This document shows, piece by piece, positions 34,287-38,058 of a stretch of DNA of 64,000 bases. Every line of letters begins with the position of its first letter. Position 1 is the first letter of the stretch. Source of the stretch: Caulobacter sp. CCUG 60055 (GTDB lineage: Bacteria; Pseudomonadota; Alphaproteobacteria; Caulobacterales; Caulobacteraceae); contig NZ_PUIC01000001.1 of NCBI RefSeq assembly GCF_022750545.1, forward strand, positions 682,001 to 746,000, read 5' to 3'. A program made the position numbers and the translations under genes. Under the pieces are notes generated by a model. The model saw nothing but the letters and a program-made list of their open reading frames with translations, searched no databases and was not told the origin of the DNA.

Positions 34287-35861
34287 TCAGAACCCGCTGG
34301 CGATCGCCGGGTCGGGCCGCGTCTTTTCCTTACGCGCGAAGAGGTTGTTGAGCGCGTTGACATAGGCCTTGGCGCTGGCGGTCAGGGTGTCGGTGTCGGC
34401 GGCCTGGCCGGTGGCGATGCGACCGTCCTCTTCCAGCCGCACCGAGACCTGGGCCTGGGCGTCAGTGCCCTCGGTGACCGCGTGCACCTGGAACAGGCGC
34501 AGCGTCGCCCCGTGCGGAGCGACCACGTGGATGGCGTTGAACACGGCGTCGACGGGGCCGTCGCCGGTGGCGCTGGCCGAACGCTCCTCGCCGTCGATCT
34601 CGACGGTCAGCTGCGCCTCCTGCGGCCCCTCGGTGCCGGCGACCACGCGCAGGTTCTTGACACGGATGCGCTCGGCGCCCCGCGCCAGGGCGTCGTCGAC
34701 CAGGGCGACGATATCGTCGTCATAGACGTGCTTCTTGCGGTCGGCCAAATCCTTGAACCGGCCGAACGCCTCGTTCAGCGCGTTCTGGCCCAGCTCGTAG
34801 CCCAGGTCCTTGAGCTTGGCGCGGAAGGCGTGGCGGCCGGAGTGCTTGCCCATCACCAGGCTCGACGGCGCCTGGCCGACGTCCTCGGGCCGCATGATCT
34901 CGTAGGTCTCGCGGTTCTTCAGCATCCCGTCCTGGTGGATGCCGCTCTCGTGGCTGAACGCGTTCTTGCCGACGATGGCCTTGTTGTACTGCACCGGGAA
35001 GCCGGTGATCGCCGAGACGTAGCGCGACGCCCGGGTGATGTGGGTGGTGTCGATGCGGGTGTCGTAGGGCAGCCGGTCGCCGCGCACGCGCAGGGCCATG
35101 ACGATTTCCTCGAGCGCGGCGTTGCCGGCCCGCTCGCCCAGGCCGTTGATGGCGCACTCGACCTGACGCGCCCCGCCCTGCACCCCGGCCAGGCTGTTGG
35201 CGACCGCCAGGCCCAGGTCGTTGTGGCAATGGGTGGAGAAGATCACCCGGTCGGCCCCGTCGACGTTCTCGACCATGTATCGGAACAGGTCGGCGTATTC
35301 GGTCGGATAGGTGTAGCCGACCGTGTCGGGCAGGTTGATGGTGGTGGCGCCGGCCTTGATCGCCGTCTCGACCGCGCGGCGCAAGAACTCGCGCTCGCTG
35401 CGGGTGGCGTCCTCGGCCGACCACTCGATGTCGTCGCACAGGTTGCGGGCGTGGCCGACGGTGCGGGCGATGACGTCCAGCACGTCGCCCGGCTCCATCT
35501 GCAGCTTGTGCTTCATGTGCAGCGGGCTGGTGGCGATGACGATATGGATGCGGCCGCGCCTGGCCGGCTTGATCGCCTCGGCGCAGCGGTCGATGTCCAT
35601 GGTGTGCGCCCGGCACAGGCCGGCGATGGTGCTTTCCTTGACGATCTTCGAGACCTCGCGCACGGCCTCGAAATCGCCGTTGGAGGCGATAGGGAAGCCG
35701 GCCTCGATCACGTCGACCCCCATCTCCTCCATGATCTTGGCGAGTTCCAGCTTCTCGTCCAGCGACATGGAGGCGCCCGGCGACTGCTCGCCGTCACGCA
35801 TGGTGGTGTCGAAGATGATGACGTTCTCGCGCTTGGCGGCGGCGTCGGATACGGAGGTCAT
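34287..35861 (-). CDS. leuA: 2-isopropylmalate synthase
   Basis: The product is 524 residues and condenses acetyl-CoA with 2-oxoisovalerate in the first step of leucine synthesis. The catalytic TIM barrel begins with DTTMRDGEQSPGASM (about 17-31). HCHNDLGLAVANSL (about 207) holds the metal-binding histidines, and NGLGERAGNAALEE lies near 236-249. The C-terminal regulatory LeuA-dimer domain starts near 390 and would bind leucine for feedback inhibition. The start MTSVSDAAAKREN was chosen over an upstream in-frame ATG that would fall inside the leader hairpins. A leucine leader peptide precedes it. Confidence 0.96.
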   Translation of the reverse strand: MTSVSDAAAKRENVIIFDTTMRDGEQSPGASMSLDEKLELAKIMEEMGVDVIEAGFPIASNGDFEAVREVSKIVKESTIAGLCRAHTMDIDRCAEAIKPARRGRIHIVIATSPLHMKHKLQMEPGDVLDVIARTVGHARNLCDDIEWSAEDATRSEREFLRRAVETAIKAGATTINLPDTVGYTYPTEYADLFRYMVENVDGADRVIFSTHCHNDLGLAVANSLAGVQGGARQVECAINGLGERAGNAALEEIVMALRVRGDRLPYDTRIDTTHITRASRYVSAITGFPVQYNKAIVGKNAFSHESGIHQDGMLKNRETYEIMRPEDVGQAPSSLVMGKHSGRHAFRAKLKDLGYELGQNALNEAFGRFKDLADRKKHVYDDDIVALVDDALARGAERIRVKNLRVVAGTEGPQEAQLTVEIDGEERSASATGDGPVDAVFNAIHVVAPHGATLRLFQVHAVTEGTDAQAQVSVRLEEDGRIATGQAADTDTLTASAKAYVNALNNLFARKEKTRPDPAIASGF

Positions 35862-35891
35862 GGGAAGGGCTCGTCGGTCTGGTGCGTTTGT

Positions 35892-35945
35892 CGGGCGGCG
35901 GGCTTTCGAGATCCCCTGCACGCCCGGCCGCGACGAAGCGCGGCC
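35892..35945 (-). promoter_or_regulatory. leuA attenuator-like RNA hairpins
   Basis: Directly after the leader stop codon the mRNA can form a 7-bp stem (GGCCGCG with CGCGGCC, 35926-35945, hexaloop). A second stem, CGGGCG with CGCCCG (35921-35926 and 35892-35897), abuts and shares one base with it, so the two cannot fully coexist. No long U-run follows, so control could be through Rho or the leuA ribosome site rather than a classical intrinsic terminator. Confidence 0.5.
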
Positions 35946-35946
35946 C

Positions 35947-36003
35947 CTAGAGCGCCCAGGGGCTGATAAGCAGGAGCGAAAGCAGGTCGCGGCGGCCGTT
36001 CAT
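35947..36003 (-). CDS. leuL: leucine-rich leader peptide of leuA
   Basis: An 18-codon frame begins at ATG 36003 behind a near-perfect ribosome site (TAGGAGGAG). It encodes MNGRRDLLSLLLISPWAL and ends at TAG 35947-35949. Five of the seven residues 7-13 are Leu or Ile apart from one Ser, and six of 18 residues are leucine. Its position 86 bases before leuA and the hairpins after it are those of a transcription-attenuation leader: leucine starvation would stall the ribosome on the Leu codons. It is too short for routine gene calling. Confidence 0.82.
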   Translation of the reverse strand: MNGRRDLLSLLLISPWAL

Positions 36004-36105
36004 AACGCTCCTCCTACACATCCAGGCGGAATCGAGCAAGCTTTTTGCGCGAGAGCAGCCCTTTTCGATCCATGACGCAAGAATTTCGCGAGAGCGGCCG
36101 GTTGC

Positions 36106-38058
36106 TCAGCGCGTAACGATCGGAAAATCGGCGGGCGCGGCATCGAACCACCCCGCCAGCCGGGCGAAGGCGGAAGCATCGCCCTCCAGCTTGACGTCGC
36201 CGCTGGCGATCTTGGCCTGCAACGGGACGTGATTGAACAGCGCGTCGAGCAGCACGGCGCGCGGCGCGGTGAGGACGGCGTCGGTCCGCTCGCTCCCGGT
36301 CGCGGCCTGCGGGACGAGGACGCCGTTGCGGACCTGCACGACGAAGCGCTCGCCGCGCTCGGGGAACACGAACCCCAGGCTCAGCCGGGCGTCCCCCGCC
36401 CTGCCGGCGTCGAGCCGCACCGACAGCAGGTCGAAGATCATCTCCGACGGCAGGTTGCGCACGAGGTCCGCCGAGACCTGGCCCGCCGGCCCGCGCCTGA
36501 CGCCGTCGCGCAGCTCGGCCGCCCCGGTCAGGTACATGTTCCGCGCCAGCGAGTTCTCGCTCTGATAGCCCAGTTGGTCATAGGTCCGGGCCAGCAGGGC
36601 CTTGGCCGCCGGATCGCCCCCCGCCATGACCAGATGGTCGAGCAGCACGGCCGCCCAGGCGTAGTCGGCCCGGTCGTAGGCCGCCTGGGCCATGGCCAGC
36701 ACCTTGGCCGCCCCGCCCATGGCCTCGACATAGCGCTTGCCGACGTCCGCCGGGGGCCGCGGCTCAAGGTGCGCGGGATTGGCGTCGTACCAGCCCATGT
36801 AGCGTTGATAGACCGCGCGGCTGTTGAAGCTGAGGCTGCCGTAGTAGCCGCGGTCGAACCACTCCCGCGCCAGGGTCTTGGGCAGGGCGATGCGGGCGGC
36901 GATCTCATCGCCGGTCATGCCCTGGTTCATCATCCGCACGCTCTGGTCGTGCAGGTATTTGTAGGCGTCGCGATGGTCGGCCAGGAAGTCGGCGATCGCC
37001 GCGCCGCCGAAGCGCGGCCAGCCGTGGCTGGTCATCATCACGTCGCTCTTGTCGCCGAACAGGCGGATCGACTCGGTCAGATAGTCAGCCCAGGCCTTGG
37101 AATCGCGGACCAGCGCCCCGCGCGGGGTCAGCACGTTGTGCATGGTGACGTTGGCGTTCTCGGCCATGTCGAGCACATGCAGGTCCGGGAGGTAGAAGTT
37201 CATCTCGGCCGGCGCCTCCGTGCCCGGCGTCACCTGGAACCGGAAACGCACCCCGTCGAGCGTCAGCTCCTGCCCGGTGCGCTCGATGCTGACCGTCGGC
37301 GGAATCAGGGTGATCGTCCCCTTGGAGATTCCCAGACCGATGCCCGACCCGAGCTGGCCGGTCGGCGAAGGGGCGAGCAGGTGGCCGAACTGGTACTGGG
37401 CCCGGCGGGTCATGGCCGGGCCGGCGATGACGTTCTCGCTGACCACTTCCTTGAGGAAGCCCTGCGGCGAGACGACGGCCACCTTGCCGGCGTCGACGTC
37501 CTTCTGGTCGACCACGCCCCGGACGCCGCCGAAATGGTCGACATGGCTGTGGGTGTAGATCACCGCCGTCACCGGGCGGGGCCCGAGCTTGTCGGAGACC
37601 AGGGCGTAGGCCGCTCTGGCGGTCTCCAGCGAGGTCAGCGGATCGACGACGATCCACCCCGCGGCTCCCCGGATGAAGGTGATGTTGGCCACGTCGAAGC
37701 CGCGCACCTGATAGACGCCGGGCGCGACCTCGAACAGGCCGCTCATGGCCAGCAGCTGCGCCTGCCGCCACAGGCTCGGATTGACGGTCGGCGGCGCCTC
37801 GCCCTTGAGGAAATCGTAGGCCGAGAGGTCCCAGGCCGCGCCGCCGTCGGCGCGGCGGATCACCGGGTCCTTGAGCGTTCCGAGGTAACCGCGCGAGGCG
37901 AAGTCGAAATCACGGCGGTCCTCGAACGGCAGCTCGCGGGCGACCTCGGCCTGGCGGCGCACGGTGGCGGCCGACGGCGCCTCGCCCGCCGTGGCGGCGC
38001 CCGCCCACAGGACGGCGGCGGCCAGGGCCGCCCCGCAGACCATGCCGCCCACGCCCAT
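36106..38058 (-). CDS. secreted alkyl sulfatase (SdsA1/BDS1 type)
   Basis: The product is 650 residues. A Sec signal peptide (cut near residue 24, after ATA) precedes a metallo-beta-lactamase domain with the zinc motif THSHVDHFGG (about 168-177). After it come an alkylsulfatase dimerisation domain (NSRAVYQRYMGWYDANPAHLEPRPP cut near 415) and a C-terminal SCP2-like domain that binds the alkyl chain. The family hydrolyses SDS and related sulfate esters to alcohols in the periplasm. It is divergent from a TetR gene with a palindromic operator between them. Confidence 0.93.
   Translation of the reverse strand: MGVGGMVCGAALAAAVLWAGAATAGEAPSAATVRRQAEVARELPFEDRRDFDFASRGYLGTLKDPVIRRADGGAAWDLSAYDFLKGEAPPTVNPSLWRQAQLLAMSGLFEVAPGVYQVRGFDVANITFIRGAAGWIVVDPLTSLETARAAYALVSDKLGPRPVTAVIYTHSHVDHFGGVRGVVDQKDVDAGKVAVVSPQGFLKEVVSENVIAGPAMTRRAQYQFGHLLAPSPTGQLGSGIGLGISKGTITLIPPTVSIERTGQELTLDGVRFRFQVTPGTEAPAEMNFYLPDLHVLDMAENANVTMHNVLTPRGALVRDSKAWADYLTESIRLFGDKSDVMMTSHGWPRFGGAAIADFLADHRDAYKYLHDQSVRMMNQGMTGDEIAARIALPKTLAREWFDRGYYGSLSFNSRAVYQRYMGWYDANPAHLEPRPPADVGKRYVEAMGGAAKVLAMAQAAYDRADYAWAAVLLDHLVMAGGDPAAKALLARTYDQLGYQSENSLARNMYLTGAAELRDGVRRGPAGQVSADLVRNLPSEMIFDLLSVRLDAGRAGDARLSLGFVFPERGERFVVQVRNGVLVPQAATGSERTDAVLTAPRAVLLDALFNHVPLQAKIASGDVKLEGDASAFARLAGWFDAAPADFPIVTR

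Follow-up and report, generated by a model that had tools for sequence, protein, structure and literature searches.

A conserved leucine leader upstream of leuA in Caulobacteraceae and other Alphaproteobacteria, and its possible role in ribosome-mediated control of leuA translation

Introduction

How leucine synthesis is controlled in Caulobacter sp. CCUG 60055 is a question raised by a short leucine-rich reading frame (leuL) upstream of leuA. The frame lies in the window, the whole 64,000-nt stretch of DNA analysed here, which comes from a genome of 4.09 Mb. The original prediction described it as the leader of a ribosome-mediated attenuator with two competing stems and no U-run, acting through Rho or by masking of the leuA start site.

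An actinobacterial LEU element (Seliverstov et al., 2005; PMC1262725) is also located upstream of leuA and has a Leu leader; no terminator is described in the part of that paper available to us, and classical attenuation seemed unlikely to its authors. For Corynebacterium glutamicum, the accessible text of PMC4046766 reports a leuA leader peptide containing four Leu codons. In the same family as the window's organism, the ilvBN attenuator of Caulobacter crescentus likewise uses a leader peptide for a branched-chain amino acid operon. It differs, as far as the available text of PMC4117421 describes it, in its use of Ile and Val codons, its Rho-independent terminator and its action on transcription. 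Among open-access papers we found no leuA leader for Alphaproteobacteria and none that joined Caulobacter, leuA and a leader; an earlier prediction may be contained in Vitreschak et al. (2004) or Lopatovskaya et al. (2010).

The leader frame and its start

The leuL frame (35947 to 36003, minus strand) consists of 18 codons encoding MNGRRDLLSLLLISPWAL before the stop, with Leu at positions 7, 8, 10, 11, 12 and 18. Translation of the window reproduced the predicted peptide and its Leu positions exactly. A gap of 85 nt separates the leuL stop from the leuA ATG at 35861. The putative regulated gene, leuA (34287 to 35861, minus strand), matched NCBIfam TIGR00970 below its cut-off; we take it to encode 2-isopropylmalate synthase partly on established knowledge of the protein family.

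The coding character of the leader was examined in 190 sequences of the class. In 174 of them the leader frame stays open over 25 codons, compared with 106 and 124 for the other two frames. Leu makes up 36% of the 10 codons preceding a conserved Leu codon, against 5% and 2.5% in the other frames. CTT accounts for 196 of the 408 Leu codons of family leaders versus 0 of 35 in the window's leuA. Judged by sequence, the leader frame has the abundance of Leu codons expected of a classical attenuator. An in-frame ATG is found in 125/190 class leaders; many have no clear start, which is counted against the explanation favoured below.

A -10-like element, TAGGAG (36011 to 36016, minus strand), lies 7 nt before the leader ATG and a -35-like element, TTGCTC (36034 to 36039, minus strand), 17 nt before the -10-like element. 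Many relatives carry TAGAAA at the position of TAGGAG. Of 74 distinct family leaders, 55 have a -10-like hexamer that ends 6–8 nt before the ATG and 53 have a TTG box that starts at -36 or -35. SD-like 4-mers occur in just 3/74 of these leaders, the window's included, where shuffled sequences are expected to give 9.4. The strong TAGGAGGAG ribosome site of the original prediction is present as a motif, but it is not conserved in the family and it coincides with the -10-like element. A ribosome site was accordingly dropped as a conserved feature of the leader, and TAGGAGGAG is more likely a promoter -10 box. The spacing of the hexamer and the TTG box, together with the scarcity of SD-like 4-mers, suggests that the leader mRNA is probably leaderless, with its 5' end at or close to the leader ATG. 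The arrangement predicted here, with the AUG of the leader ORF as the first bases of the mRNA, is known from another alphaproteobacterial amino acid leader, trpL of Sinorhizobium meliloti; that system differs in being a tryptophan attenuator at trpE, called transcription attenuation in titles cited in the accessible part of PMC10117765.

Distribution of the element

In a LeuA search of 149 genomes of the family Caulobacteraceae, 108 were matched. We obtained upstream DNA for 90 loci (L002–L091), the window's included; many of the other matches are in genera g3 and g14. Three loci (L012, L019 and L084) are cut by contig ends. The leader and a hairpin at its end, P1, are present in 81 of the 87 untruncated loci, the window's among them (80 by pattern, L078 by eye). 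The leader is absent from six family loci (L085–L090, genera g3 and g14), in which LeuA is divergent at 42–54% identity.

Covariance model R1, built from the family, matched 79/385 genomes of the class and 70/200 genomes of the order. All 78 class matches other than the window's own and the 17 order matches that were fetched lie upstream of leuA. Model R2 matched 89 of 398 phylum genomes, 88 of them in the class Alphaproteobacteria; the one match beyond the class had an E value of 0.007, which is at chance level. An exact-pattern scan of named genomes found at least 119 stretches, with leuA directly after 116 of them and the other three cut by the end of the locus. Gluconobacter, Acetobacter, Asaia, Tistrella mobilis and Caulobacter sp. 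S45 are among the exact-pattern matches listed. Rfam 15 gave no match at gathering score in the whole window, and the two Rfam matches on 301 bases were both far below their gathering scores. The original prediction proposed conservation in other Caulobacterales as a check: leader, Leu codons and stems are kept there and well beyond that order. Like the LEU element, this one is positioned upstream of leuA with a Leu-codon leader, and judged from these comparisons it is a real, conserved leucine leader.

A leucine codon at a fixed place and hairpins P1 and P2

A conserved feature of the leader is a Leu codon, CTT within CTTA, at 35968 to 35970 (minus strand), which starts 8 bases before the C-run of P1 and which we propose as the regulatory codon. 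It is CTT in 61 and CTA in 6 of 67 distinct family leaders. In the class, 86 leaders have CTT and 3 have CTA; these 89 are a set of 95 loci minus six in which the automatic search misplaced P1, with at least one misregistered row (L200) retained. CTT accounts for 153 of 2652 Leu codons in the leuA genes downstream of the class leaders. In 86/89 class leaders the conserved codon is followed by A, although this base is part of the next, variable codon (CTTA at 35967 to 35970 of the window, minus strand). The attenuator model leaves this A unaccounted for, and we count that against the model. The leader stop is a TGA four codons past the conserved Leu in 64/89 class leaders and a TGA or TAG at that place in 67/89; the window has a TAG seven codons past it. 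The two residues after the conserved Leu vary among class leaders. An RPWA or RP-stop peptide was considered as an arrest motif and thought unlikely: the residues beside Pro vary, and the helix and the CTT/CGA bases are fixed.

P1 is formed by CCCCTGGGCG within the last leader codons (35953 to 35962, minus strand) and CGTGCAGGGG (35913 to 35922, minus strand), with one G-G mismatch. P2 is a hairpin within the P1 loop, formed by GGCCGCG directly after the leader stop (35939 to 35945, minus strand) and CGCGGCC (35926 to 35932, minus strand). In the family, P1 mostly joins the end of the leader frame (GCCCCTGGGCG) to a CAGGGG strand about 30 nt further on; in most of the class its 5' strand is GCCCCTGA, with the stop codon inside. 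The frame had been predicted to end just before the stems; P1, the main conserved stem, instead overlaps the last codons and the stop. An alternative partner of CCCCT was read from the sequences of the window and some relatives: AGGGG at the leader stop (35944 to 35948, minus strand), which competes with P1 and P2.

Both hairpins were assigned from covariation alignments. In the family alignment, P1 and P2 are paired in 93.0% of cells of 54 sequences and the covariation score is higher than in all 500 shuffles; pairs changed on both sides were matched by 1 shuffle and further pair types by 6. The 54 sequences remain from 68 distinct ones after removal of near-duplicates (L005, L006, L009 and L020), long loops (L079, L080, L082 and L083) and sequences in which MAFFT misregistered an extra base (L037, L046, L051, L055, L057 and L060). 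The class alignment, which consists of 92 hand-chosen loci fitted to the model and is hence biased toward pairing, has 94.6% of cells paired and 163 cells changed on both sides. Its covariation score is 0.318 versus 0.138 in shuffles, none of the 500 being as good. L175, L185, L193, the ilvA copies described below and near-duplicates were left out of it.

A possible rival of P1 in many Caulobacteraceae is an upstream GGGGC:GCCCC hairpin, which is paired in 79.3% of cells and shows no covariation. Folded as a single sequence, the window is not unusual (z 0.30), so the case rests on comparison. In L175 and L185 (family f117 of the class) P1 reads by eye as CCTCTAG with CTAGAGG; this apparent double compensation was missed by the automatic P1 search and is uncounted.

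Pairing with the leuA ribosome-binding region

Two alternative pairings with the region before leuA were found, in different groups of genomes. The first, P3, joins TTCGTCG in the P1 loop (35931 to 35937, minus strand; mostly P2 loop, with two P2-stem bases) to CGACGAG in the leuA ribosome-binding region (35870 to 35876, minus strand), that is, UUCGUCG with CGACGAG in the window's RNA. Pairings were scored as perfect helices and compared with permuted partners, using one table of stacking energies, with some G-U values approximate, for observed and permuted pairs alike. In 73 Caulobacteraceae sequences the 3' half of the P1 loop scored -12.87 with the ribosome-binding region compared with -11.32 for permuted pairs (0/5000 as good). 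With one sequence per genus (15 genera) the median fraction as good was 0.00025, ranging from 0 to 0.0075 over 20 draws. P3 was unsupported in the class outside Caulobacteraceae, where 3060/5000 permutations were as good. In some family members the best helix is a different one, AGGGG with CCCCU (L005, L035 and L040).

The second pairing, P4, joins the leader codons (34 nt up to the conserved CTTA) to the 30 nt before leuA. In 84 class loci outside the family (drawn from 95, the rest removed for P1 score, start distance or duplication) it scored -12.92 versus -10.70 permuted, with 0/5000 as good; one sequence per family (49 families) gave 0/3000 in each of 10 draws. Since the idea of P4 arose from this set, the test was repeated on 102 new sequences, all of which share CGACTTA, part of the pattern used to find them. 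The result was -11.40 versus -10.18 permuted (0/5000), and the control regions gave 1209/5000 further upstream and 1736/5000 inside leuA. In Caulobacteraceae P4 was unsupported (3753/5000 permutations as good; median 0.78 over repeated draws). Because P4 is unsupported in Caulobacteraceae and P3 elsewhere, two forms must be assumed, which is counted against the explanation favoured below.

The loop-SD pairing was also scored with RNAduplex. In the family, own pairs scored -19.8 versus -18.0 across genera, a median of 0.365 of cross pairings being as good and 22/73 sequences falling in the best fifth; in the class there was no difference (-15.21 versus -15.22). RNAduplex joins helices across long gaps, and for that reason perfect helices with permutation were used instead.

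The element resembles the actinobacterial LEU element, by analogy of layout. In the accessible text of PMC1262725 the base stem of the LEU element pairs the Leu codon run with the leuA Shine-Dalgarno box, like P4 in most Alphaproteobacteria examined. Such a stem of Leu codons with the leuA SD is supported in the rest of the class and unsupported in Caulobacteraceae, where, unlike in the LEU element as described there (PMC1262725), the anti-SD is in the P1 loop. The same description sets it apart from the alphaproteobacterial element in two more respects, the P1 that spans the leader stop and the Leu codon at a fixed place (PMC1262725).

An isoleucine version before ilvA

In genome G032 a second covariance-model match lies upstream of ilvA. 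The sequence CGA-ATT-NNN-CGC-CCC-TGA is found exactly before ilvA in 5/5 genomes of genus g20 (L271–L275, locus position 1500, match strand), and tblastn placed IlvA after the element in all five; L273 and L274 were assigned to threonine ammonia-lyase above the NCBIfam cut-off. The Ile codon ATT in these leaders takes the place of the Leu codon of the leuA leader, and the leuA leader of the same five genomes has CTA at the fixed position. By this comparison, genus g20 seems to have reused the leuA switch for isoleucine by a single-codon change. With up to one mismatch CGAATTNNNCGCCCCTGA matched in 17/28 genomes, and it was exact only in the five g20 genomes. Five loci with inexact matches were inspected (L262, L267 and L276–L278); they look like chance and were not taken as real elements. 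A P1 hairpin search matched 79/385 genomes. Judged by eye, 20 of its places comprised 8 further leuA leaders, 1 ilvA leader and 11 without a like context, and no codon for any further amino acid was seen among the places inspected.

In T-box riboswitches a specifier codon stands at a fixed place and its replacement changes the amino acid; the tRNA is read directly, without translation. The leuA element is like a T-box in its fixed-place codon and unlike it in that no translation takes place in a T-box; the window also has no Rfam match.

A model of leuA control and its alternatives

We propose that the region senses leucine as a ribosome-mediated attenuator of leuA translation initiation, the window holding the Caulobacteraceae variant of an element found across Alphaproteobacteria. 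The probability that we give this reading is about 0.56. The promoter would fire, the mRNA would begin at or near the leader ATG, and a ribosome would translate leuL or its counterpart. In the class outside Caulobacteraceae, the codons that immediately precede the conserved CTT would double as the anti-Shine-Dalgarno strand. With leucine plentiful, the ribosome would finish and leave, and these codons would pair with the leuA ribosome-binding region below P1, turning leuA off; with Leu-tRNA in short supply it would stall on the Leu codons and cover the anti-SD strand, leaving leuA on. In Caulobacteraceae the anti-SD strand would have moved into the P1 loop, where it overlaps P2. A ribosome stalled on the Leu run would leave P1 and P2 free to form and to lock the anti-SD away (leuA on), and a ribosome at the stop would mask the 5' strands of P1 and P2 and free the anti-SD to pair with the leuA ribosome-binding region (leuA off). 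Compared with the original prediction of ribosome-mediated attenuation, the conserved Leu-codon leader with its hairpins is retained on the sequence evidence and the ribosome site of the leader is not.

Folding calculations with and without a ribosome agreed with this scheme in part. Placing a ribosome four codons upstream of the conserved Leu raised the calculated accessibility of the SD region in class RNAs (n=78) from 0.36 in free RNA to 0.49 (47 up, 8 down). With the ribosome at the stop it was 0.46, and the difference between stalled and stop positions was small (0.03; 27 up, 13 down). In family RNAs (n=75) loop-SD pairing rose in 54/75 when the ribosome was at the stop and the P1 5' strand masked, and SD accessibility barely differed (0.04; 33 up, 16 down). 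A first folding pass with a different SD window showed no family effect. In the window's RNA P1 hardly formed (0.15 expected pairs free, 0.03 stalled) and the SD region was most accessible in free RNA (0.74 versus 0.63 stalled and 0.64 at the stop). Loop-SD pairs numbered 2.94 with the ribosome stalled upstream versus 0.12 at the stop, opposite to what the model predicts. The mismatch in the window's P1 also counts against the model. In these calculations, made with a program that ignores pseudoknots such as P3 together with P1, the folding of the window's own RNA runs against the proposed model. Support is good for the anatomy of the element and is lacking for the way in which the window's own copy would work.

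One alternative, which we consider unlikely, is Rho-dependent attenuation: the leader ribosome would shield or expose a Rho site, and SD pairing would merely add polarity. The few U-runs and the untranslated stretch from P1 to leuA (median 50 nt) are in its favour, but by itself it predicts no covariation of leader or loop with the leuA SD region. That covariation with RNA near the leader is also the reason why, on sequence grounds, start-site masking is favoured among the two modes named by the original prediction.

A second alternative, also improbable in our view, is an RNA that binds a protein or a small molecule and in which the leader ORF is of secondary importance; this has been proposed for the LEU element of Actinobacteria. 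In its favour, CTTA, CGA and the CCCC/GGGG core are conserved beyond pairing needs, and a protein was favoured by the LEU element authors in the text available to us (PMC1262725). Decoding is indicated instead by an openness and a Leu richness that are specific to one frame, and by the exchange of Leu for Ile in the ilvA leader.

A third alternative, likewise unlikely, is classical transcription attenuation, in which P1/P2 or an alternative would be a terminator and a stalled ribosome would favour an antiterminator. Its usual layout of leader ORF, Leu codons and hairpins is present, and such an attenuator is used by Caulobacter ilvBN according to the accessible part of PMC4117421. The U-run that this requires is missing from the window, as had been pointed out originally. 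There is no terminator-like site at 35700–36300 of the window, and a U-run within 14 nt after P1 is found in only 2/80 family and 6/90 class sequences. What the covariation indicates is a contact with the ribosome-binding region of leuA. Nascent-peptide arrest at the L-x-x-P-stop end, usual in the class as the stop positions given above indicate, is very improbable, because the two residues before Pro vary (R, G, C, S, H, N, D and V; T, I, S, R and M among others) and the bases of the codons are fixed (CTT/CTA, mostly CGA, CCC), which means that the RNA is conserved and not the peptide.

The attenuator model can be extended, tentatively and at somewhat less than even odds, to a class-wide switch that has no Rfam family. 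In this switch a codon at a fixed place before P1 would name the sensed amino acid, like a T-box specifier but read by the ribosome. It would precede leuA, would have been copied to ilvA in one genus with a change from Leu to Ile ATT, and in Caulobacteraceae would have had its anti-SD moved from the sensing codons to the hairpin loop. If true, it would explain control of leucine synthesis across a bacterial class and would be a case of a regulatory RNA that keeps its leader and hairpins while the anti-Shine-Dalgarno strand changes place. The natural codon swap (Leu before leuA and Ile before ilvA in the same genomes) makes the sensing codon directly testable, and the element is relevant to how the similar LEU element of Actinobacteria works.

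The enzyme type encoded downstream is not constant. In three loci of the class (L186, L188 and L199) the element is upstream of a distant LeuA type, 26–29% identical to that of the window and assigned to 2-isopropylmalate synthase, so the enzyme type differs there while the putative switch stays.
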